Positions 6,356 through 40,397 of a stretch of DNA of 64,000 bases are shown here, piece after piece (the first letter of the stretch is position 1; each line of letters starts with the position of its first letter). The stretch covers positions 1-64,000 of the forward strand of contig NZ_LBHV01000013.1 in assembly GCF_001005825.1 (NCBI RefSeq), in the 5' to 3' direction. The DNA is from Rhizobium sp. LC145 (lineage in GTDB: Bacteria; Pseudomonadota; Alphaproteobacteria; Rhizobiales; Rhizobiaceae). Made by a program: the position numbers and the translations under genes. The notes beneath the pieces were generated by a model. That model had not been told where the DNA came from, searched no databases, and was given only the letters and a program-made list of their open reading frames with translations.

Positions 6356-6781
6356 TCATGTCTCCGGTTCGAAGGCGATGTACGGGATGCTGACGGGAAC
6401 CCTCATCCGGTCCACGTCTTTGAGTGGGCTTGCTGCCCAGGGCTCGCTGCTGATCGTGATCTTCACGCCAGAGGCGAATAGGGTTTGGTTCTTGAAGCGG
6501 TCGATGATCTCGCCGGCGACATCGAGGGCCTCGGTCAGCCCGATACCAAGCGGCCACATCACCGATGCCTGCATGATTCCCCGCTTCTGCTGCGGATCGT
6601 CACCCATCGTGATCTGACGGGTTTGGTTCGGCAGGAAGGTGAGTTCGATGAACTTGCCCGGCTTCGTCTGGCCTGAGGCCGGGAACGTGACGTTCGGCCC
6701 CGCAATCGGCAGGATGTCCAGCATGGTGCGCAAATGCGTAGCCAGCGCACTGAAGATGATTGCGTCCGTGCCCGTCGCCAT
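6356..6781 (-). CDS. Tail terminator protein (gpU/DUF4128-like)
   Basis: 141 residues. The helix-strand arrangement (LATHLRTMLDILPIAGPNVTF, then KFIELTFLPN, then ASVMWPLGIG, residues 12-95) fits DUF4128/gpU-type tail terminators, which cap the tail tube before head joining. It lies 3 bp upstream of the tail tube gene, in the canonical order. Family called from pattern and order, not from a search. Confidence 0.78.
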   Translation of the reverse strand: MATGTDAIIFSALATHLRTMLDILPIAGPNVTFPASGQTKPGKFIELTFLPNQTRQITMGDDPQQKRGIMQASVMWPLGIGLTEALDVAGEIIDRFKNQTLFASGVKITISSEPWAASPLKDVDRMRVPVSIPYIAFEPET

Positions 6782-27958: not shown

Positions 27959-28269
27959 GCCGCACCTGCCTCAGCCGCTGCTATCGCGCGTCTCATGCAA
28001 GAGAGCACCGCCTTATGACCGTGCCCGTCGTTGAACTCGAAAATGGATTGCTTGCCGCACTGCGCCCGCAGGGCGAGGATCGCTGCGCTATAATCGACGG
28101 CGCTCGCCTGAACCCTCTGGATCGCACCGACCATGCAGAACCGCTTGGCGCGTTCGTCAAGCGGACGGACCTCGTTGCCTCGGGCATCCAGGGCGATCGC
28201 CTGCTTTGCCCACCTATGCGGTGGGCTGATGATCGCCAGGGCGTCGGAAAGGACAGAGGCCGCGCTCAT
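27955..28269 (-). CDS. DUF6197-like protein
   Basis: 104 residues from ATG 28269. Contains [32 protein letters not shown] and [21 protein letters not shown], the DUF6197 pattern (W..G..A.D..G; C..GAI; .ND......V...L..AI). Family function is unknown. Both ends overlap neighbours as ATGA. Confidence 0.7.
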
Positions 28270-28517
28270 GCTGCGCTCTCCGTCGGGACCGGACGCATTA
28301 CGCTCTCCGGCCAGTCCGCCTTTTCCGGCCAATTGGACGAGAACCAAGCAACCACTTCGTCGTACTTCTTCGCGGTGAAGGTCTTCCCTTCCCGTATCCG
28401 GGAAAAGAAACGCCCATCGGCAGCGCAAAGGCGCCCGACAGTGGCTTCGCCTAGCTCGCGCGCGGCGCAGAACCGCTCGGAGAGGGTCAAGAGATGATTT
28501 GCGAGTTCCGTTTCCAT
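28266..28517 (-). CDS. Cro-like DNA-binding protein, first early gene
   Basis: 83 residues. An N-terminal helical region with ATVGRLCAADGRFFSRIREG (residues ~25-44) and KTFTAKKYDEVVAWFSSNW looks like a diverged Cro/C1-type helix-turn-helix. It is the first gene of the leftward early operon, divergent from the S24 repressor with the operator region between, exactly where cro sits. Its ATG 28517 lies 7 bases after a TATAAG -10 element and there is no ribosome site, so the message is probably leaderless. Confidence 0.68.
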   Translation of the reverse strand: METELANHLLTLSERFCAARELGEATVGRLCAADGRFFSRIREGKTFTAKKYDEVVAWFSSNWPEKADWPESVMRPVPTESAA

Positions 28518-28523
28518 ATCCCA

Positions 28524-28597
28524 CTTATAGTAGGATGCATCCCACTTTGCAATAGGAAACTTCCCATTCGCACACTGAGGGGGAAATTTCCTATTCT
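28524..28597. promoter_or_regulatory. Divergent early promoter/operator region (oR-like), three operators
   Basis: Three 18-bp partly palindromic sites: AGTAGGATGCATCCCACT (28529-28546), AATAGGAAACTTCCCATT (28551-28568) and AGGGGGAAATTTCCTATT (28578-28595); common core GGA-N4-TCC with A/T-rich ends. On the minus strand TTGCAA (28552-28547), exactly 17 bp, and TATAAG (28529-28524) form the cro-side promoter, with the first operator filling the spacer. On the plus strand TATTCT (28592-28597) is a possible -10 for the repressor; its -35 is poor, as in activated or weak maintenance promoters. Confidence 0.8.
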
Positions 28598-28603
28598 CCG
28601 CGA

Positions 28604-29302
28604 ATGAACAAACTCCAAGAGATCGTCGCCAAGCGACTTAAAGAACTCGGCCTTGGGCCGGTAGAAGCCGCGGTACAAGGCGGCTTAGAGCGGACCTATA
28701 TCCGCGACATCGTCACCGGTAAGAAGCAGTCAGTGAAGGCGGATAAGATAGCCAAGCTGGCGCACGTGCTCCGCCTAGATGCGGAGGCGTTGGCCCGGAA
28801 TGAGGCGATACCGGCAGAGCTTATTGAAGCTGATACAGGTGCCGGCCGTCCTCGCTCTAACGCGAGCTTTCCGCCCCAATACCAGAAGTTTACAGACAGC
28901 TCACTTCCGCTGCTCGGCCAGACCATAGGTGGCCCGAATGGCCGGTTCATACTGAATGGATCAGAGGTCTCCCGCGTCTTCACTCCTCCCATGCTCGAGG
29001 GCGTTGAAGGCGCCTATGCAGTCCGAGTTTACGGCACCTCAATGGAGCCCAGGTACTATGCTGGAGAGACCGTTTGGCTGAATCCACACGAGCCGGTAAG
29101 ACAAGGGGATGATGTCGTTGTTCAGCTTCTTACAGACGAAGAAAATGGACGCGAGAGCTACATCAAGCGTTTCGTTTCTCAGTCATCAAAGGCGACCAGG
29201 CTCTGGCAGCACAACCCCGACGAAGGTGAGCAGAACGAACTCACCTTCGACACAGAACAGGTCTTCTCAATTCATAAGATCGTCTTTCATGCGACGGTCT
29301 GA
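28604..29302 (+). CDS. S24/CI-like phage repressor
   Basis: 232 residues. N-terminal helix-turn-helix (residues ~15-57, GLERTYIRDIVTGKKQS), linker, then an S24 peptidase domain with YGTSMEPRYYAGE (Ser146) and ESYIKRF (Lys188), the LexA/CI dyad. It represses both early operons through the operators near 28.55 and 32.7 kb. In homologues I remember, cleavage falls at an Ala-Gly bond before GxxGRF; here the bond is Ile108-Gly109, so damage-induced self-cleavage may be altered. ATG 28604 follows the -10 by 6 bases and lacks a ribosome site. Confidence 0.9.
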   Translation: MNKLQEIVAKRLKELGLGPVEAAVQGGLERTYIRDIVTGKKQSVKADKIAKLAHVLRLDAEALARNEAIPAELIEADTGAGRPRSNASFPPQYQKFTDSSLPLLGQTIGGPNGRFILNGSEVSRVFTPPMLEGVEGAYAVRVYGTSMEPRYYAGETVWLNPHEPVRQGDDVVVQLLTDEENGRESYIKRFVSQSSKATRLWQHNPDEGEQNELTFDTEQVFSIHKIVFHATV

Positions 29303-29553
29303 AGCGCGCCATCAGAAATCCATGTCGGCCGGATCGTCAGATTCCGGAAGGACGGAGGGCGCTTCGGGCATTCGCTGCAGCGAATTTTCCGGCAGAGCTG
29401 CATGTAGTTATGAACGCCGAGTGTCGCGGCTTGGCGAAGGTTCTGAAGCTTTAGCGTTCGTGAATGTCCGCAATCGTCACATGCGACGTAAAGGCTTGAT
29501 AACTCAACAACTAACCTCATCGCGTCGGGGTATTCAATTGACGGGCGCGGCAT
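29287..29553 (-). CDS. Small zinc-ribbon protein
   Basis: 88 residues. Two cysteine pairs, CDDCGHSRTL and CRKIRCSEC, with spacing of a treble-clef or zinc ribbon; AGGAGA precedes ATG 29553. It is on the minus strand in the repressor interval and ends within the last 16 bp of the repressor gene. Such small zinc ribbons are often nucleic acid or protein adaptors. Function unknown. Confidence 0.65.
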   Translation of the reverse strand: MPRPSIEYPDAMRLVVELSSLYVACDDCGHSRTLKLQNLRQAATLGVHNYMQLCRKIRCSECPKRPPSFRNLTIRPTWISDGALQTVA

Positions 29554-29656
29554 TCATCTCTCCTGTTTGTTCCCATTTCGTTCACGGCAAAAAAGCAGGA
29601 GTCATTCCAAGAGTCGAGTCGAAAGTGATTCGTTTTCGGGGCTGAGCATCTAACCC

Positions 29657-29983
29657 ATGAGCAGCGTTAACGATTTTGTTTCCGAGCTGGTGCGAGCGGC
29701 AAACGTGGTCGAGAAACTCCGCGAAGATGAGAAGGGTCGGCTCCTTGCCCGAGCTGTGAGGACCATCCGCGATCTCCGTATCGAGGTCGGCATTCCGACG
29801 AACGTTTCCATCAAGGATGCCGCGATAGAGTTGCTGGAAGCATATGCACGGATCAAGGACGGCACGGCTGACGCTCACGAAGTTCGCACAGCCCTACTCG
29901 ACGCCGCCGGCATGATCAGAGACCTGCATATCGTGCGGGATACGGGGACGGAAATTCAGATCGGGGATGGAGGGGGAAGGTGA
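29657..29983 (+). CDS. Helical protein upstream of TcmP
   Basis: 108 residues, almost wholly helical (FVSELVRAANVVEKLREDE, RTIRDLRIEVGIPTN, AAIELLEAYARIKDG). Its stop overlaps the TcmP start as ATGA-type coupling (29980-29983), so the two are expressed together in the direction of the repressor gene. Family not recognised; it may be a third component of the TcmP/DUF5131 cassette. Confidence 0.6.
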   Translation: MSSVNDFVSELVRAANVVEKLREDEKGRLLARAVRTIRDLRIEVGIPTNVSIKDAAIELLEAYARIKDGTADAHEVRTALLDAAGMIRDLHIVRDTGTEIQIGDGGGR

Positions 29984-30909
29984 CGGAGGATATCAACAAA
30001 CATGAATTCGGCGGCCAACACACCGACATCAAACTCGAGATTGTCGAAAGATATCTAAAGCGATACTCGGCCGCACTGCACACATGGTGCAACGATGTCT
30101 GGTATATCGACGCGTTTGCTGGAACCGGCAGTCGTACCGTTCGTATCAAAGCTCGCGATGGCGACCTCTTCGAAGAACCTGCTCCAGAGTATGTCGAACA
30201 GCGCAGAGGGTCGGCGACAATTGCGCTAGACATCCAACCTCAGTTCGAACGCCTCGTGTTCATGGATTTGAAACCGAGGCATGTTGCAGCTCTAAACCTC
30301 ATCAAAGACGCAAATCCTCATAGAACAATCGATGTCCTGCAGGGGGACGCAAACGAGCTGATCCGTAGGGAGATTGACATAAACGGCTGGAAATCAAGGC
30401 GTGCCGTTATGTTCCTTGATCCATATGGGATGGAGGTAGAATGGGAGACGCTGAAAATGATCGCAGCTACGAAGGCGATCGACGTCTGGTACCTGTTCCC
30501 GTTGTCTGGCTTGTACCGCCAGGCAGCTCGCAACATGTCAAAAATCGATGAGACCAAGGCAAGAGCGATAACGAGAATGCTAGGCACAGAAGCCTGGAGG
30601 GAGGAGCTTTACTCTGAAGCACCACCCGCCGGGGATCTTCTGGCATTTCTCGAGCCTCAAGAAGTGCTCCAACGAAATGCTGATGTGGCGGGCCTAGAGA
30701 GGGACGTCCGGGAGCGGCTACTGACCATCTTTCCAGAGGTCCTAGAGCCGTATGCACTGCCGCCGGTTGAGCGCCCGCAGAAGTTTTCTCTCTTCTGCGC
30801 TATATCTAACCCTTCCGAGAAGGCCGTCGCACTGGCTCGGCAGTTTGGAGACGATATCACAAGGTCGGTGCTGCCAAGTGGGGCATTTCGTCGTACGTCC
30901 GACCGTTAA
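29980..30909 (+). CDS. tcmP: Three-Cys-motif partner protein TcmP
   Basis: 309 residues. KLEIVERYLKRYSAAL, then YIDAFAGTGSR (residues 43-52, a Rossmann methyltransferase-like motif I), FMDLKPRH, and VMFLDPYGMEVEW (motif IV-like DPYG, 147-150), the pattern of the three-Cys-motif partner family. Known members sit beside a DUF5131/Gp37-Gp68 protein with a three-Cys motif on mobile elements; their reaction is not known. Here it converges with that partner, overlapping by 53 bp at the 3' ends. Start may be GTG 29980, coupled to the upstream gene. Confidence 0.87.
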   Translation: MTEDINKHEFGGQHTDIKLEIVERYLKRYSAALHTWCNDVWYIDAFAGTGSRTVRIKARDGDLFEEPAPEYVEQRRGSATIALDIQPQFERLVFMDLKPRHVAALNLIKDANPHRTIDVLQGDANELIRREIDINGWKSRRAVMFLDPYGMEVEWETLKMIAATKAIDVWYLFPLSGLYRQAARNMSKIDETKARAITRMLGTEAWREELYSEAPPAGDLLAFLEPQEVLQRNADVAGLERDVRERLLTIFPEVLEPYALPPVERPQKFSLFCAISNPSEKAVALARQFGDDITRSVLPSGAFRRTSDR

Positions 30910-31618
30910 GCTCGCGGCCCGCGGCCTTCTTGTTCTTTCCGCCCCACTGCTTGAAAAAAAAGGCGGTGCCGTGATCACGGCACATGCGTTCGATCTCGTG
31001 AACCCATGCTGGATCCATATGCCGTGCCTGTGGGCCGGACTCGCCGCCGACTATCGCCCAATGAACGTCCTTCAAGCTTGCACCAGCGACTGAACCTATC
31101 AACGGCTCGAAGGAAGCAAATCGCACAGCGGCGGGAACTGCTCTCAGTTCATCGAGACGATGAAGAACTCGGCCGTCCTCTACGCTCGTACCTAGCCATA
31201 CATTCGGAAGAATTTTGAATTCCTTCCCCGGAAGGATTTCCGCCATCCGATCCGGCCGCTTCGTGAGGATCTGGTACGTGTGCTGCGGCGTGGTTTCCAT
31301 CGTCTTCCAGACGGCAGCGATGAAATCGACCGGAACATCAGAGTGAAATAGATCAGACATCGAGTTGACGAACACAAGCCGCGGTTTAGACCACTTTGCC
31401 GGCACATCCAGGGATTTCCAGTCGAGGTTTATCTTGCCGGTCCACTTAGCGCGACCGCCGCTTTTGCGCGTAAGACCTACATACTTTTCGGAGCCCATGG
31501 CTTCCAGCCGTGCTGCCATCCGCATTGCATAGCAGTTCGTGCAGCCGGCGGTGAGTATCGTGCAGCCCGCGACTGGGTTCCACGTCGCATCGGTCCATTC
31601 GATTGAAGTTTCTGCCAT
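30857..31618 (-). CDS. DUF5131 (phage Gp37/Gp68) three-Cys-motif protein
   Basis: 253 residues. IEWTDATWNPVAGC (Cys19) and AGCTNCYA (Cys26, Cys29) give the Cx6Cx2C motif of this family, resembling an iron-sulfur or radical-SAM-type cluster site. Further landmarks: RLVFVNSMSDLFHSDVP, ILTKRPDRM, WLGTSVEDG, FEPLIG, WAIVGGESGP and FFFKQWGG, all family hallmarks. Function unknown; found with TcmP. AAAGGG precedes ATG 31618. It is transcribed against the repressor direction. Confidence 0.92.
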   Translation of the reverse strand: MAETSIEWTDATWNPVAGCTILTAGCTNCYAMRMAARLEAMGSEKYVGLTRKSGGRAKWTGKINLDWKSLDVPAKWSKPRLVFVNSMSDLFHSDVPVDFIAAVWKTMETTPQHTYQILTKRPDRMAEILPGKEFKILPNVWLGTSVEDGRVLHRLDELRAVPAAVRFASFEPLIGSVAGASLKDVHWAIVGGESGPQARHMDPAWVHEIERMCRDHGTAFFFKQWGGKNKKAAGRELNGRTYDEMPHLAAPTL

Positions 31619-31835
31619 GGCGGACCCTTTCTTTGATGTTCGCCATTGTATCAGAATCGGTAAATTTTCCGAGAATTTTTACAAGGCTTCGCTGAAATAT
31701 ATTTTCATATCAATCTCTTAGCTATGCATAGTTTACAATACTTGCGGCAATGTGCCGAATGTCGGCAGCGGGTCCCCGCGACTCGCAACAGGTACCTGCA
31801 CGTTGTTCGGAATCCTTCTATAAGCGCGTTCTAGG

Positions 31836-31940
31836 ATGAAAATCACTCGCCACCGTACCGAAATCGCGGCACCTGACCTCGTTACGAAGCCCATAGCGTG
31901 CGATGTCTGTGATCTGCTTCATGCGCAGATCCCCTCCTGA
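31836..31940 (+). CDS. Possible 34-residue peptide gene or small RNA before a terminator
   Basis: A frame from ATG 31836 to TGA 31938-31940 encodes 34 residues with a CDVCDLLH end. TATAAG at 31819-31824 could be a -10 (no clear -35), placing the RNA start a few bases before the ATG; a strong terminator begins 4 bp after the stop. The transcript of ~140 bases could be a short message or an sRNA. The rest of 31619-31835 is AT-rich upstream sequence in which I see no gene. Confidence 0.35.
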   Translation: MKITRHRTEIAAPDLVTKPIACDVCDLLHAQIPS

Positions 31941-31943
31941 CCT

Positions 31944-31975
31944 ACCCCGCCGGCGTTCGGTGGGGTGTTTTTTTT
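31944..31975 (+). terminator. Strong intrinsic terminator in the repressor interval
   Basis: Nine-base stem (ACCCCGCCG with CGGTGGGGT, one G.T pair) with a 5-base loop, one G, then eight T. Plus-strand orientation. No recognised plus-strand gene ends here except the possible 34-codon frame, so it implies a short transcript from upstream. Confidence 0.85.
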
Positions 31976-32035
31976 GGCAACAGCATTGCCTGGGGTCCGC
32001 TGACCCTGCTTAGGAAGGGTGATCGACACGAGACG

Positions 32036-32434
32036 TCAGGAGGAAGCGAGGTGAGATTGAGGCTCAGCCTGTTGTTCCAATTGATCAAACGCGGTGGGAT
32101 CTAGCGTTATGCCAAGGCGCTTGCGATGGCCACTCGCCCAGGCAAGAGCGTTTTCTCGGATTAGAAATTCGCGCTCATCGACCAGGCCGTCGTTAACTCG
32201 AACGAGCCATTTGTCTCCGTTACGGAGCACTTCAACTGACGGCATGGGAATTGATCCGGCTAGGTGCTGAAGACCAGATTGGCACCAATCCGTCTGACTG
32301 TCGAATCGTTTTAGATGTTGCCGGCTAAGGGCCGTTTGAGCCAACGCATGTATTCGCTCCCCATCTTCTGTCTCAACCTTCTCTGTCAGAGGTGATTTCG
32401 TTCCTGAAGGATGGTGAGGGAGGGTTCCGGTCAA
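32036..32434 (-). CDS. Protein of unknown function in the repressor interval
   Basis: 132 residues as drawn; an internal ATG at residue 64 opens a 69-residue form whose sequence (VEVLRNGDKWLVRVNDGLVD, EFLIRENALAWASGHRKRLG) is the best-conserved-looking part. Likely a small alpha/beta protein. Minus strand, with the left early promoter 250 bp upstream reading the other way. Start and function uncertain. Confidence 0.45.
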   Translation of the reverse strand: MTGTLPHHPSGTKSPLTEKVETEDGERIHALAQTALSRQHLKRFDSQTDWCQSGLQHLAGSIPMPSVEVLRNGDKWLVRVNDGLVDEREFLIRENALAWASGHRKRLGITLDPTAFDQLEQQAEPQSHLASS

Positions 32435-32834
32435 AGCTCCCCCTACCCCTCAGAACACGAATGTCCCGAAAGGCAGGGAGAGCGTTTGACGCATCCTGAA
32501 GGCCGGAGCCGGGATGGGACACGTGTCAGGACGCCTCTCGGCTAATCCGTCCTCATTTTCTGGCAGCACAGTAGGACTTACGCTCCCCGCGCCTCGGGCT
32601 TCACCAGCTCGGGAGTTGCACCCGGTCGCCCGTCGATGGGCATAGGGATAAACTCACAAATCCTACTTCGTCAAACAAAAAGTAGGATGCATCCCACTTT
32701 CCTCTTGATCAGTGGGAAGTTTCCTACTATAACCATCTCATCAGCCGCCCCGAATGATCTGCCTCGGCACGAAGAAACGGGACGGCGCCAGCGGGCCGAG
32801 TTCGAGTACCCGCGCAGAGTTGAGGATGGGGAAC
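32435..32834. other. Intergenic region before the rightward early operon
   Basis: No gene recognised. The right part (32,660-32,733) holds the oL-like operators and promoter; a half-site TCCTACTT lies at 32661-32668. The left part (32,435-32,640) shows no clear repeat, RNA or frame longer than a few codons and probably contains the promoter of the minus-strand gene ending at 32036. Confidence 0.6.
32681..32733 (+). promoter_or_regulatory. Rightward early promoter with two operators (oL-like)
   Basis: AGTAGGATGCATCCCACT at 32681-32698 is identical to the first operator near the repressor; in fact 20 bases match (AGTAGGATGCATCCCACTTT). AGTGGGAAGTTTCCTACT at 32711-32728 has the same core. TTGATC (32705-32710), 17 bp, TATAAC (32728-32733) form a good promoter whose spacer is the second operator, so bound repressor would block it directly. 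It drives the recombination and integrase operon. Confidence 0.85.
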
Positions 32835-33266
32835 ATGGAAAACCGCAAGCATCCGATTGAAGCAAACGAGACCCTGGTGGCGGTCGTTTGCAGCGCGCGC
32901 ATCCAGCGCAAGTACCTCACCGAGAGCGCCTTCTTCGGCAAGGCCATGAAGATCGCCGACGTGCTCGATGAGCTTTCCGACGACGAGATCGTCACCGTCC
33001 TTCGGGTGAATACCGAGACCTGGGCGGCGGAAGACATCACCGAGTATTGCGCCCGCCAGTATCTCTACGACCGCGATGGGCGCGGCCTTGGTGTCGAACT
33101 CGATGATGAGGACGGCTTTCCGGCCTTCGTTCGCAACAGCAAGGAGTGGGCGCTCTGGAAGGATGATCTGGAAGCTGCCGCGCCGGTCCAGCCCGATCCC
33201 GACCGCCGTCACGACGAGCGCCGCGACCATCAGGCTATGGGGTGGGTAGAGGGGGCTTCGCTATGA
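32835..33266 (+). CDS. First protein of the rightward early operon
   Basis: 143 residues from ATG 32835 (GGGGAAC before it); an ATG at 32826 is also in frame. Conserved-looking segments: ANETLVAVVCSARIQRKYL, DVLDELSDDEIVTVLRV and DITEYCARQYLYDRDGRG, followed by an acidic, charged end. Lambda encodes an antiterminator in this place, but no arginine-rich motif is seen here. Function unknown. Confidence 0.68.
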   Translation: MENRKHPIEANETLVAVVCSARIQRKYLTESAFFGKAMKIADVLDELSDDEIVTVLRVNTETWAAEDITEYCARQYLYDRDGRGLGVELDDEDGFPAFVRNSKEWALWKDDLEAAAPVQPDPDRRHDERRDHQAMGWVEGASL

Positions 33267-33643
33267 GCAAGCACACTCCCGGCCCTTGGTCCTTCCGCAC
33301 CGACGCGCGCACCGGCGACAACGGCATCATGGCCGATGGAACAGGTGTGTTCGTCGAGGCCTTCGCGGAAATCCGTCACAGCGGCGAAAACGCACGGGAT
33401 GAAGCTTTGGCCAACGCCCGCCTGATCGCCGCCGCTCCTGATCTGCTGCAGGCGCTAGAAGATCTGCTCCACGCTTATTCGGAGCCAGACCGTCGTCTGT
33501 GCTGCGACGGCCGGGACTGTGGCTGCATGGGCTCTACAGTTCACCAACAGGCCGAGCATTACGCTCGCTTAGCCATAGCAAAAGCAGAAGGCCGCTCCGA
33601 ATCCCTCCCCCTCTCCAAAGGACAGGAGGAAGGCAATGGGTGA
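33263..33643 (+). CDS. Conserved phage hypothetical protein
   Basis: 126 residues, ATGA-coupled to the upstream gene. MSKHTPGPWSF start, ARDEALANARLIAAAPDLLQ and CCDGRDCGCMGSTVHQQAEH are the hallmarks of a very common phage protein seen in recombination operons (TPGPW...ANARLIAAAPDLL). Its function is unknown; the cysteine cluster could hold metal. Confidence 0.8.
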   Translation: MSKHTPGPWSFRTDARTGDNGIMADGTGVFVEAFAEIRHSGENARDEALANARLIAAAPDLLQALEDLLHAYSEPDRRLCCDGRDCGCMGSTVHQQAEHYARLAIAKAEGRSESLPLSKGQEEGNG

Positions 33644-34151
33644 GATCAAGCACAACGATCTTGAGGAATCCATCCGCCTAGCTGAGATCGGGGAATATCT
33701 CTACAACCGCTCGTACAGCTACGGCAACGGCTACGATGAGCCCCGCGAATTCGGGATCGAGTGGCAATGGCAACAGTCCAAGCCGAATGAGTTCGGTCAG
33801 GGCGCCCTTTTGGCCGAGGCCGTCAAGTGGCATTCCGACATGGCCGAAGACGGTCTCAGCACCGAAGCGACTAAGCTGCGAGCTTCCATTGAGAAGAATG
33901 CGAAAACGCTTGAACACTGGCGTCAGGAGGTCGGCAAGCTTCATTCGCAGATCGCCTCCCACACGTCTGCGCTGGCGGAAAGGGATGCGCGTATTGCCGA
34001 GCTTGAGGCGGCGCTGAAATCGGCGGAAGACGCTTTATTTTGGTCCGCGCGTCAGCATCACGAATACGGGAACAGCAGAGCGCAGAAAGCAACAGAGCTT
34101 TCCGCTCATTCCGCCCGCGCCGCTCTCGCCAGGGAGCAGGCCGATGCGTGA
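33636..34151 (+). CDS. Coiled-coil early protein
   Basis: 171 residues. N-terminal region with YLYNRSYSYGNGYDEP and a FGIEWQWQQSKPNEFGQGAL segment, then a coiled coil (residues ~75-130) and a helical Ala-rich end. Eight-base overlap with the gene before and after. Function unknown. Confidence 0.6.
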   Translation: MGEIKHNDLEESIRLAEIGEYLYNRSYSYGNGYDEPREFGIEWQWQQSKPNEFGQGALLAEAVKWHSDMAEDGLSTEATKLRASIEKNAKTLEHWRQEVGKLHSQIASHTSALAERDARIAELEAALKSAEDALFWSARQHHEYGNSRAQKATELSAHSARAALAREQADA

Positions 34152-34356
34152 CGCCCTCTCCGCCCTCAACCGCGCCCGCGAGATCAACGCCCGCATTGAA
34201 GCCAAGCGGGCCGAGGCAATCCACGCAATCAACCAGGCGGTGACGCTGATCCTCGCGCTCTGCACCGTCGCCTTTTCATTCCTCGTGTTCGGCCTGCCCG
34301 AACAGCAGCGGCTCGACCGCGAAAATCAGGAACAGGTGGCGACATGGGCGAAGTGA
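34144..34356 (+). CDS. Small single-pass membrane protein
   Basis: 70 residues: an amphipathic basic helix (RAREINARIEAKRAEAIHAI), one membrane segment (AVTLILALCTVAFSFLVFGL) and a charged end. A cytoplasmic helix followed by a membrane anchor in the early-left-like operon could be a regulator of host membrane processes. Family not recognised. Confidence 0.6.
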   Translation: MRDALSALNRAREINARIEAKRAEAIHAINQAVTLILALCTVAFSFLVFGLPEQQRLDRENQEQVATWAK

Positions 34357-35201
34357 TCGACCCGGCGGGACCGGAAATCTCAATCGGGACAGCCGCAACC
34401 GGCGTCCTCGCAAAAGCAAAACAAGCCATGGAGGCAAGACAGATGGCAAACGCAGTTGAAATCCAGCGTCCGGGCGAGCAGACGGCAGTGGCGCCGGCGG
34501 CAGCTATGACGCCTATGGAAATGCTCGACCGCGCTGTTTCGCAAGGCGCCTCGGTCGAAACGCTGTCCAAACTGATGGACCTGCAGGAGCGCTGGGAAAA
34601 GAACCAGGCACGCAAGGCGTTTGCTGCGGCAATGTCAGCAGTCAAGGCTGAACTGCCGCGGATCGTCAAAACCCGCAAGGTAGACTTCACCAGCGCCAAG
34701 GGCCGGACCAACTACCAGTACGAAGACCTCGCAGGGATCATGGATCAAGTGGGCCCGGTGCTGTCCCGCCATGGTCTTTCTGTCCGATATCGCACGGTTG
34801 CCGAGCCGAACCAGCCGATATCTGTCACCTGCATCATCGAGCATTCCGACGGCCACCACGAGGAGAACACCCTGATGGCCGGCCGCGACGACAGCGGCAA
34901 CAAGAACAGCATTCAGCAGATCGGTTCCACTGTCACGTACCTCCAGCGCTACACGCTCAAGGCCGCGCTCGGTCTGGCGGCAGCTGCTGACGATGATGGC
35001 TCGAAGGCCGACGATACCGGCACGATCACCGAAGCCGAGCGCGAAATCATCCTCAGCATGATCGATGAGACGGAATCCGACATCGAGAAATTCTGCGCGG
35101 CTCTGCAAATCGAGAGCGTTGCCACGATGCCGGCCGCCAAGTTCCGCCGAGCTGTCGGCATGCTCGAAGCCAAGAAAAAGAAGGTGGCCGCAAATGGATG
35201 A
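34344..35201 (+). CDS. ERF-family single-strand annealing protein
   Basis: 285 residues. Residues ~80-215 form the ERF domain: NQARKAFAAAMSAVKAELP, VDFTSAKGRTNYQYEDLAGI, GLSVRYRT and IQQIGSTVTYLQRYTLKAALGLA. It anneals complementary strands made by the phage exonuclease, the Rec-beta type function. A flexible N-terminus (1-60) is unusual; an ATG at 34443 could start a shorter form. The next gene encodes the exonuclease, giving a Red-type pair. Confidence 0.88.
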   Translation: MGEVIDPAGPEISIGTAATGVLAKAKQAMEARQMANAVEIQRPGEQTAVAPAAAMTPMEMLDRAVSQGASVETLSKLMDLQERWEKNQARKAFAAAMSAVKAELPRIVKTRKVDFTSAKGRTNYQYEDLAGIMDQVGPVLSRHGLSVRYRTVAEPNQPISVTCIIEHSDGHHEENTLMAGRDDSGNKNSIQQIGSTVTYLQRYTLKAALGLAAAADDDGSKADDTGTITEAEREIILSMIDETESDIEKFCAALQIESVATMPAAKFRRAVGMLEAKKKKVAANG

Positions 35202-39141: not shown

Positions 39142-39324
39142 ATGGGACGCCGCGCCGTGGCCTTTACCGAAGATTCAGTGTCCCGCGCGATCCGCGCCGT
39201 AAAGAAGGCCGGCGTCGAGGTCAAGACTATTCGCATCGAGCCGAATGGTTCCGTTGTGATCAACGGGGATAACGGGGAAATCACAGAAAAGCAGATTGAA
39301 GAAAGCGCGGGTGGCTATCTCTGA
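39142..39324 (+). CDS. Small protein before integrase, possible excisionase-like factor
   Basis: 60 residues from ATG 39142. MGRRAVAFTEDSVSRAIRAV, then KAGVEVKTIRIEPNGSVVIN, then an acidic end. Its stop overlaps the integrase start as TGATG. Small genes in this place often encode directionality factors, and AFTEDSVSRAIRAVKKAG could be a winged-helix start, but this is position-based inference. Confidence 0.6.
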   Translation: MGRRAVAFTEDSVSRAIRAVKKAGVEVKTIRIEPNGSVVINGDNGEITEKQIEESAGGYL

Positions 39325-40397
39325 TGGAGGACATGCCACGCCGCCGCTACCAATATGTTCAGCGCCAAGTTACCAGACACGGTTCGGTTGTCTGGTATTT
39401 CCGCGTGGGGGATGGACCGCGGACGCGCCTTCCAGACGAATATGGCTCAACGGAGTTTGTCGAGGCCTGGAAGGCTCTCATGTCAGGGCAATCGATCGAA
39501 AAGCAGCCCGCTGGCAAGCACACCCTCCAATGGCTGGTGGACAAGTACCAGCAAAGCGCCGCCTTCAAGGGCCTGAAAAAGTCGACCCAGGCTAATCGCC
39601 GCAATATCCTGAAAAAGGTATGCGAGACCGGCGGAAAGCTTCTTGTATCGCAGATCACTCGAACAACAATCGCTGCCGGCCGTGACAGGCGTGCTGAAAC
39701 ACCCTACGCCGCCATCAATTTCATGAAGGTAATGGGCTATCTTTTCGAATGGGCGGTGGATGCAGGCTATGCGAAGATCAATCCAGTTCGCGAGGTCAAG
39801 CGCCCGAAGGTGAAGTCCAGCGGCTTCAAGCCATGGACAGCAGAAGATGTCATCGCCTTCTACAAAAAGCACGGCGCCGGGACGCAAGAACGTCTGGCGC
39901 TGGAGATCATGCTATTCACCGGTCTCAGGCGAAGCGATGCTTATAGGGTCGGCCCGCAGCATATCAAAAATGGGATAATCGAGATCCGTGCCCAAAAGAA
40001 CGGAGAAGAGCTATTCATCCCACTCGACCCCATTTTGGCATCGTCTTTGGAAAAAGTTCAAACGGGCCATCTCGCCTATCTCGTGACGCCGAAACACGGT
40101 CGACCATTCAAGAGTGAAGCGTCGTTCGGGAATTGGTTCGGGAAAGCGTGTGCAGATGCAGGAGTGAGCGGCCGAGCGCACGGCATCAGAAAACAGGTTG
40201 CGCAAAGGCTTGCAGAAGCCGGGGGAAGCAATGCCGAGCTAAAGGCCCTATTTGGCTGGAACTCCGATGCGATGGCTGCACTCTACACGAGAAACGCCGA
40301 CAAGCGGAAGCTTGCCCAGGCGGCGGCAGAGAAACTAAAGGCGAACAGCCTATCCCCTCACCCTAAACCTAAAACCCCTCACCTTGAAAAAAGATAA
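39324..40397 (+). CDS. int: Tyrosine integrase
   Basis: 357 residues. Core-binding domain at ~65-155; catalytic domain with LFTGLRRSDA (Arg202), a basic strand with EIRAQKNGEELFIPL (Lys candidate 225), AHGIRK (His286, Arg289), LFGWNS (Trp312 in place of the second His) and LYTRNADKR (Tyr321 nucleophile). Integrates and excises the prophage at the adjacent tRNA-Arg gene. An ATG at 39333 could also be used. Last gene of the rightward early operon, 36 bp from the tRNA end. Confidence 0.95.
   Translation: MEDMPRRRYQYVQRQVTRHGSVVWYFRVGDGPRTRLPDEYGSTEFVEAWKALMSGQSIEKQPAGKHTLQWLVDKYQQSAAFKGLKKSTQANRRNILKKVCETGGKLLVSQITRTTIAAGRDRRAETPYAAINFMKVMGYLFEWAVDAGYAKINPVREVKRPKVKSSGFKPWTAEDVIAFYKKHGAGTQERLALEIMLFTGLRRSDAYRVGPQHIKNGIIEIRAQKNGEELFIPLDPILASSLEKVQTGHLAYLVTPKHGRPFKSEASFGNWFGKACADAGVSGRAHGIRKQVAQRLAEAGGSNAELKALFGWNSDAMAALYTRNADKRKLAQAAAEKLKANSLSPHPKPKTPHLEKR

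Follow-up and report, generated by a model that had tools for sequence, protein, structure and literature searches.

A TcmP–DUF5131 gene pair in the immunity region of a Rhizobium prophage: a candidate two-enzyme nucleic acid modification system

The locus and its prophage

We analysed a stretch of 64,000 nucleotides from Rhizobium sp. LC145 (assembly GCF_001005825.1, contig NZ_LBHV01000013.1, positions 1 to 64,000), hereafter the window, with a focus on two neighbouring genes of the families TcmP and DUF5131. Its repressor, ERF-type annealing protein and integrase beside a tRNA-Arg gene indicate that the window carries a temperate phage. An earlier note, made from the sequence letters, had described a cassette of three open reading frames (ORFs), a helical protein followed by TcmP and DUF5131, placed between operator clusters as rexAB is in lambda. 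All three ORFs are present where the note put them (Table 1).

The operator clusters are real. They have in common AGTAGGATGCATCCCACTTT, a 20-nt exact repeat at 28529 and 32681, and a 14-nt inverted match (28553/32713); in 30 shuffles, no match was longer than 11 and 12 nt, respectively. The bracket that they form (28525-32732) encloses the repressor, a 108-aa ORF, TcmP and DUF5131, as well as about 1 kb past DUF5131 (31640-32680) with a plus-strand terminator-like site that was rated strong. In lambda, the accessory genes rexAB lie between the repressor and the left operators, and the window pair has the same rex-like position. It differs from RexA/RexB in that its proteins are enzymes and DUF5131 opposes the repressor. 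Because DUF5131 lies convergently on the opposite strand, it cannot share a rexAB-like transcript with the repressor, and the 53-bp convergent overlap means that TcmP and DUF5131 are not one operon. A single lambda-like rex operon was dropped for this reason. No Rfam match was found at 28000-34000. No attachment-site repeat of the tRNA-Arg region turned up inside the window, where no match exceeded 12 nt, and the other end of the prophage was not found.

Table 1. Features of the prophage immunity region and neighbouring phage genes in the window.
Feature	Position	Strand	Basis or remark
Operator cluster at repressor/cro promoters	28525..28595	.	Palindrome-like related boxes; box number judged by eye
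CI-like repressor, 232 aa, helix-turn-helix (HTH) and S24 peptidase-like domain	28604..29302	+	PF00717 2e-09; phrog_4 transcriptional repressor 2.2e-19
Doubtful small ORF, 88 aa, antisense to repressor 3' end	29287..29553	-	Sub-threshold Pfam and weak PHROG matches only
108-aa predicted protein	29657..29983	+	ORF list; no family above cut-off
TcmP, 309 aa, RlmJ-like class I methyltransferase fold (predicted)	29980..30909	+	TIGR04474, PDC-M41A, AlphaFold2, Foldseek
TcmP motif I, IDAFAGTG, presumed S-adenosylmethionine (SAM)-binding loop	30106..30129	+	D44, F46, G48 invariant in 90 sequences
TcmP motif IV position, DPYG	30418..30429	+	D147-P148 invariant in 90 sequences
DUF5131, 253 aa, radical-SAM-type, spore photoproduct lyase-related (predicted)	30857..31618	-	PF07505, AlphaFold2, Foldseek, profile match
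Convergent 3' overlap of TcmP and DUF5131, 53 bp	30857..30909	.	ORF coordinates
C19-x6-C26-x2-C29 motif of DUF5131, presumed 4Fe-4S ligands	31532..31564	-	Invariant in 69 sequences
Intrinsic-terminator-like site (predicted), between DUF5131 and left operators	31943..31967	+	11-pair stem, T8 tail
Left operator cluster, before early/recombination operon	32678..32732	.	Repeats matching cluster 28525..28595
ERF-type annealing protein	34344-35201		PF04404 6.6e-24
Integrase	39324-40397		PF00589 above cut-off; ends 36 bp before tRNA-Arg gene

DUF5131 is very probably a radical-SAM enzyme

Both family names given in the earlier note hold. DUF5131 matches the whole of PF07505 with 312.5 bits (E 2.4e-93; gathering cut-off 28.9 bits), and TcmP matches TIGR04474 with 182.1 bits (1.8e-53; curated cut-off 53 bits). 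The chemistry, which the note had called unknown, can be sharpened on the basis of structural models to a radical-SAM enzyme and an RlmJ-like methyltransferase, and we consider these chemistry classes well supported.

The AlphaFold2 model of DUF5131 (predicted local distance difference test score, pLDDT, 92.5) has the beta/alpha barrel of the radical-SAM superfamily according to Foldseek. The top six matches in the PDB are all spore photoproduct lyase (probability 1.00, best E 8.9e-4); from rank seven on, unrelated barrels predominate, and the radical-SAM proteins BlsE and MiaB come at ranks 25 and 38. Spore photoproduct lyase and related COG1533-type radical-SAM enzymes are thus the nearest solved fold, and the three-cysteine motif can be aligned with that of radical-SAM (PF04055) proteins. 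The Cx6Cx2C cluster pointed out in the earlier note was found with this spacing in 71 of the 71 loci tested (DUF5131 of at least 240 bits on its own profile, five duplicate loci left out). Unlike spore photoproduct lyase, DUF5131 thus has CX6CX2C instead of CX3CX2C, and it has a TcmP partner. The radical-SAM model TIGR04471 also matches it at 5.5e-20, below the 355-bit cut-off of that model.

Where DUF5131 is missing beside TcmP, radical-SAM proteins with CX3CX2C or CX3CX3C are found instead. All six of these substitutes that were scanned match PF04055, and three of the six weakly match DUF5131 (E 5e-5 to 1e-3). A profile of 69 DUF5131 proteins aligned to a profile of 16 substitutes with 92.6% probability (E 4.6e-7, 202 columns). 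Cysteines 1 and 2 line up in both kinds of substitute; cysteine 3 lines up with that of the CX3CX3C proteins and is shifted by one column relative to CX3CX2C. Given this fold and the radical-SAM substitutes at the same place, DUF5131 very probably belongs to the radical-SAM enzymes of the spore-photoproduct-lyase type, its CX6CX2C motif being a stretched form; the same fold and partner exchange speak against a plain zinc-cluster protein, an idea that was dropped.

Some further radical-SAM and DUF5131 genes came to light. In the radical-SAM partner of a TcmP in Lyngbya aestuarii (L112:6897-8861, minus strand), a LAGLIDADG-type insertion that looks like an intein sits at the cysteine motif, and the same gene is uninterrupted in a relative (L115). 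The window's own genome has two more DUF5131 genes (L002 and L003, on C10 and C33; 301 and 249 aa), one preceded by an ORF that resembles a Dam methylase (by eye) and the other followed by an integrase; no TcmP was found in this genome apart from the window's. In another genome (G158, L047), a DUF5131 of TcmP-linked length lacks a TcmP and instead converges on an ORF that resembles a HAD phosphatase (by eye).

TcmP is predicted to have an RlmJ-like methyltransferase fold

The AlphaFold2 model of TcmP has a pLDDT of 90.1, and its top ten Foldseek matches in the PDB are all RlmJ/DUF519. A profile search also ranked RlmJ first, at an E of 0.08 that is non-significant alone. Direct comparison with one RlmJ-type reference protein (L032, itself E 1.2e-63 to RlmJ) gave a weak match (E 0.003, probability 9.9%). 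The model shows a Rossmann-type fold with motif I and motif IV, the latter as the variant D-P-[YF]-G. Taking the first D[PQ]x[GA] past residue 100 as motif IV, we found DPxG or DPxA in 92 of the 95 TcmPs no longer than 340 aa; the exceptions are L102 and L110, which have none, and L164, which has a chance-looking DQKA. As modelled, TcmP has an RlmJ-like class I SAM methyltransferase fold.

The nearest solved fold is thus RlmJ, the 23S rRNA A2030 N6-methyltransferase (m6A2030). TcmP differs from it in motif IV, in being mobile and highly diverse, and in its tie to a radical-SAM enzyme. The idea that TcmP is RlmJ itself fails on the motif (DPYG against DPSY in L032) and on the weak sequence relation.

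A second, longer TcmP with DQ[FY]G is present in seven loci (L073, L081, L085, L086, L088, L093, L098). At these loci the short TcmP faces an operon of DUF5131 and the long TcmP, except that all three genes run in the same direction in L085. The arrangement suggests a heteromer of an active and a degenerate TcmP. In another seven loci, mostly from Clostridia (L129, L130, L136, L142, L160, L162, L164), a long TcmP, a short TcmP and a CX3CX3C radical-SAM gene stand in a row, and the long TcmP has no D[PQ]x[GA] match. N6_N4_Mtase and ResIII genes then follow in L142, and also in L132.

TcmP is almost always accompanied by a radical-SAM gene

Among 337 genomes from the host's class, 25 have a TcmP above the cut-off, and all 25 have DUF5131 within 1 kb of it (adjacency judged by eye). 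One of the 25 genomes has an extra TcmP copy at a contig start, without DUF5131. TcmP is patchy in the window's genus, where 8 of 36 sampled genomes carry it. In a wider set of 101 TcmP loci (L064-L164, some of which are copies of one element), DUF5131 lies within 2.5 kb in seventy-eight and another radical-SAM protein in nineteen, for a total of ninety-seven with a radical-SAM-type neighbour. Of the four loci with neither, L079 and L101 are at contig ends, L094 has an interrupted TcmP next to a transposase-like frame, and L113 is a 3.4-kb contig whose TcmP is short; L094 and L113 were read by eye. The pair is also found on plasmids and chromosomes.

A set of 71 loci with DUF5131, again without five duplicates, comprises thirty-five with convergent genes, twenty-eight with TcmP first and eight with DUF5131 first. 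The genes overlap, by 4-89 bp, in thirty-four of the thirty-five convergent loci, so the convergent overlap of the window is a recurrent form.

The dependence of TcmP on a partner, together with the independence of DUF5131, keeps alive a toxin-antidote explanation (addiction or abortive infection), in which TcmP would make a harmful base modification, DUF5131, as a repair-type radical-SAM enzyme, would reverse it, and disturbance by an infecting phage would free TcmP. TcmP is almost never alone while DUF5131 alone is common, and the closest solved fold of DUF5131 is a lesion-reversing enzyme. In a Synechococcus phage (L064), the pair also adjoins an annotated acetyltransferase and a small DUF1778-like gene (by eye), which is toxin-antitoxin-like. 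The gene order varies (35/28/8 of 71), however, unlike that of most toxin-antitoxin operons. We regard this explanation as unlikely.

The 108-aa ORF ends on TcmP, with its stop overlapping the TcmP start by 4 nt. Its product has no family above the cut-off in Pfam, NCBIfam, PHROG and PADLOC-type scans. Among 102 loci (L063-L164) the gene is present only in L063 and L146, both of which are this prophage. Relatives of the protein form a small family found in 11 of 40 related genomes (the window's genome counted), and TcmP is present in only two of those eleven, the window's own and G358. The protein, which the earlier note counted as part of the cassette, is incidental, and a three-gene system was dropped, as the ORF is not kept with the pair. 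The family is small and belongs to this genus, and two tandem relatives of the ORF (57% and 68%) lie elsewhere in the window's own genome (L179, C31:31756-32702).

The pair recurs beside phage repressors

The earlier note had proposed a survey of whether the pair recurs in prophage immunity regions. It does: TcmP and DUF5131 lie beside repressors in alphaproteobacterial prophages, in a Synechococcus phage and in Gordonia phages. In a Mesorhizobium prophage (L067), the repressor N-terminus and a cro-like protein are 59% and 70% like the window's, the pair stands behind the repressor in a co-directional run, and the window operator core GGAAACTTCCCA is present on either side of the pair, at 6457 and 11313. 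Different repressor-type genes are present in another prophage (L147) and in Synechococcus phage Yong-M2-251 (L064), each of which has repeats of its own across the pair (14 nt against 12 shuffled in L147, 13 nt against 10 in Yong-M2-251). At a further locus (L074), an HTH-like ORF (by eye) stands immediately before TcmP. Flanking operator repeats were tested at five prophage or phage loci.

For Gordonia we used 15 records (H5-H19) among 40 listed of 159. All 10 distinct phages among these records, whose DUF5131 is at about 50% identity, have a tblastn match to TcmP, and we inspected seven of the ten (Jablanski, Easley, ThankyouJordi, Angelique, Fairfaxidum, Bosnia and BaxterFox). In each of the seven, DUF5131 is convergent with TcmP, and the pair is near an integrase and a metalloprotease-type gene (annotated as metalloprotease, peptidase or hypothetical). 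TcmP stands right behind an annotated immunity or transcriptional repressor in six, with a 3-bp gap or a 4-bp overlap; in Jablanski there are two ORFs and then a gene annotated as repressor. These TcmPs are annotated as 'methyltransferase' in five phages and hypothetical in two. All seven match in hmmsearch (E 1e-25 to 1e-72), and the five that were scanned all pass the NCBIfam cut-off. Across 144 neighbour ORFs at 18 phage and prophage loci, the top PHROG family was the transcriptional repressor, with eight members.

According to one actinophage study, the neighbours of the integration/immunity cassette are the expected site of lysogeny-expressed defence genes (PMC5559632), and the pair likewise lies by such a cassette. 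The word 'methyltransferase' does not occur in the main text of that paper.

A near-constant DUF5131 with a variable TcmP

Every pair of the seven Gordonia phages has DUF5131 proteins that are 92-97% identical. Their TcmPs fall into four types with 18-25% identity between types; within types, identity is 51% for Jablanski and Fairfaxidum, 88% for Angelique and Bosnia, and 97% for Easley and ThankyouJordi. Easley and Bosnia have a common repressor (88%) and not a common TcmP (21%), while Angelique and Bosnia have a common TcmP and repressors alike at the C-terminus only. For these two combinations, we can rule out that TcmP was swapped jointly with the repressor. Across all comparisons among 72 TcmP-DUF5131 pairs (two-TcmP loci left out), DUF5131 is the more conserved protein in 95%, with a median identity of 52% against 38%.

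The simplest reading suggested by these sequences is a constant DUF5131 with an exchangeable TcmP partner. Recombination among related phages may also be the cause of the sameness of DUF5131, because the adjoining metalloprotease-type protein is also conserved (by eye). It is possible that the C-terminal end of the repressor forms a recombination seam behind which TcmP types exchange. The C-terminal ends of the Gordonia repressors (L165, L171-L176) are often alike and their front parts different.

This pattern bears on two of the rival explanations. In the toxin-antidote case, one near-constant DUF5131 would need to undo the products of TcmPs that are only about 20% identical. A second rival holds that TcmP adjusts translation in the lysogen as an RlmJ-like rRNA or tRNA enzyme and that any phage resistance is no more than a by-product. 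The RlmJ fold agrees with this, as does the lower T5 infection on loss of m6A from host RNA; extreme TcmP diversity at one locus would be unexpected if the target were a conserved host RNA, and we consider the idea improbable.

Defence context

Both proteins match the component models of two catalogued PADLOC systems, PDC-M41 and PDC-M30 (TcmP: M41A 3.7e-73, M30A 1.2e-8; DUF5131: M41B 1.7e-105, M30B 4.5e-96), and both components are adjacent in the window. The catalogue entry gives no mechanism; in the window, the two genes run towards each other, overlap and lie within a phage immunity region. PDC candidates come from a 'guilt-by-embedding' survey, and the majority are unvalidated (PMC12988326). 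We found no validation of PDC-M41 or PDC-M30 in the open-access literature. PDC-M30 was present in 32 of 100 Pseudomonas aeruginosa strains, 68.8% of which were phage resistant, a correlation only, in another study (PMC10855318).

On pSymA of Sinorhizobium meliloti 2011 (L170), an 845-aa frame is followed by a short TcmP and then by a long TcmP and DUF5131 in the opposed direction. The 845-aa frame matches the solved helicase 10uj over its full length (1931 bits). One paper lists the DEAD/DEAH helicase and phage-defence gene hna (SMa2245) adjacent to TcmP (SMa2243) among upregulated genes (PMC12445080). From the helicase match, this adjacent listing and the gene order, we take the 845-aa frame to be hna.

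Restriction-modification families are also found nearby. Among 119 neighbours sampled at non-convergent loci, the top Pfam families were N6_N4_Mtase (five), ResIII (four) and radical SAM (four, which are the TcmP partners, kept in the tally), followed by Eco57I, TaqI_C, MmeI and DEAD (three each). The 25 PADLOC families listed, of 252 matched, are type II, III and IIG enzymes and DrmMI, where each neighbour protein matches many models. The 137 neighbours at convergent loci were mixed, with at most three members per family, S24 and TniQ included. These tallies have no background rate and are given as context, with no claim of enrichment.

The PDC-M41/M30 listing, the hna neighbour in S. meliloti and the restriction-modification neighbours make phage exclusion by the pair, as the earlier note had suggested, plausible. 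The same neighbours and the modification-type chemistry would also suit an anti-restriction role, in which the pair modifies phage or host DNA against nucleases of the host or of rivals. This is the least probable of the alternatives that we weighed, as the pair is found with the repressor in lysogeny regions, away from virion and replication genes, and on plasmids and chromosomes too.

The pair itself is already catalogued, as PDC-M41/M30 and under the NCBI name 'three-Cys-motif partner'. We found no paper under DUF5131 or PF07505 in the open-access literature, where 'three-Cys-motif' with TcmP was found in two papers, each time as a table mention. Nor did we find an open-access paper on its chemistry, radical-SAM nature, place behind repressors or constant/variable pattern; a subscription paper is possible.

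Interpretation

Our computations support the predicted folds and cysteine motif, the pairing and its position, and the constant/variable pattern; what follows beyond these is inferred. Our best explanation, to which we give an even chance, is that TcmP and DUF5131 form a two-enzyme nucleic acid modification system, an accessory module of the immunity region of temperate phages that serves prophage-mediated defence. In this system, TcmP would select the target, an RNA or DNA site, and methylate or prime a base, and DUF5131 would then do a constant radical step on the same base. The lysogen would express both proteins. The modification might mark or damage invading nucleic acid, or adjust host RNA, such that unrelated phages fail (heterotypic defence). 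We propose that the diversification and exchange of TcmP follow from its role in setting specificity, and that DUF5131 is kept constant by a chemistry that all share. Wybutosine synthesis in tRNA, where Trm5 is followed by TYW1, provides a precedent for a pathway of a methyltransferase and a radical-SAM enzyme. A small-molecule (viperin-like) product was dropped by inference, since a macromolecular target would better explain why TcmP is so extremely diverse.

Several observations weigh against this explanation. Template modelling (TM) scores are only about 0.5, both for TcmP to RlmJ and for DUF5131 to spore photoproduct lyase. RlmJ is a housekeeping enzyme, and fold likeness to it gives no substrate. 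The window DUF5131 has no PF04055 match of its own, and its sequence-profile search for solved structures returned none at E 1, which counts against the radical-SAM assignment. DUF5131 occurs in 46 of the 337 genomes, 21 of them without a TcmP above the cut-off, and it is among the early genes of phages RcapNL, TChen, RR1-A and prophiT36-2a, where no TcmP match was found in the stretch fetched; because of these occurrences, DUF5131 also has roles without TcmP. The 12-nt operator match in L067 is within the range of its own shuffles (13), and L074 has no repeat common to both sides of the pair. As for expression, the earlier note took the location to predict it in the lysogen, and this does not hold for DUF5131, which is transcribed against the repressor; TcmP is co-directional with the repressor, across a gap of 677 bp with an antisense ORF in between. 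No promoter for TcmP or DUF5131 was recognised in the window. Finally, we found no experiment in the open-access literature that ties the pair to phage resistance.

A bolder version is that a constant radical-SAM enzyme works with interchangeable target-selecting, methyltransferase-like TcmPs, which phages swap at one fixed position behind the repressor, to put a radical-made mark on foreign nucleic acid. We hold this as a tentative possibility. If true, it would be a so far unrecognised form of prophage-borne immunity, akin to the swapping of specificity subunits in restriction systems.

Both DUF5131 and TcmP are widespread names to which no function is attached, and their placement as radical-SAM and RlmJ-like proteins turns them into testable chemistry. 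Their recurrence in immunity regions likewise yields a testable hypothesis of prophage defence. The Gordonia phages offer natural variants that differ in the partner while the radical enzyme is near-constant.

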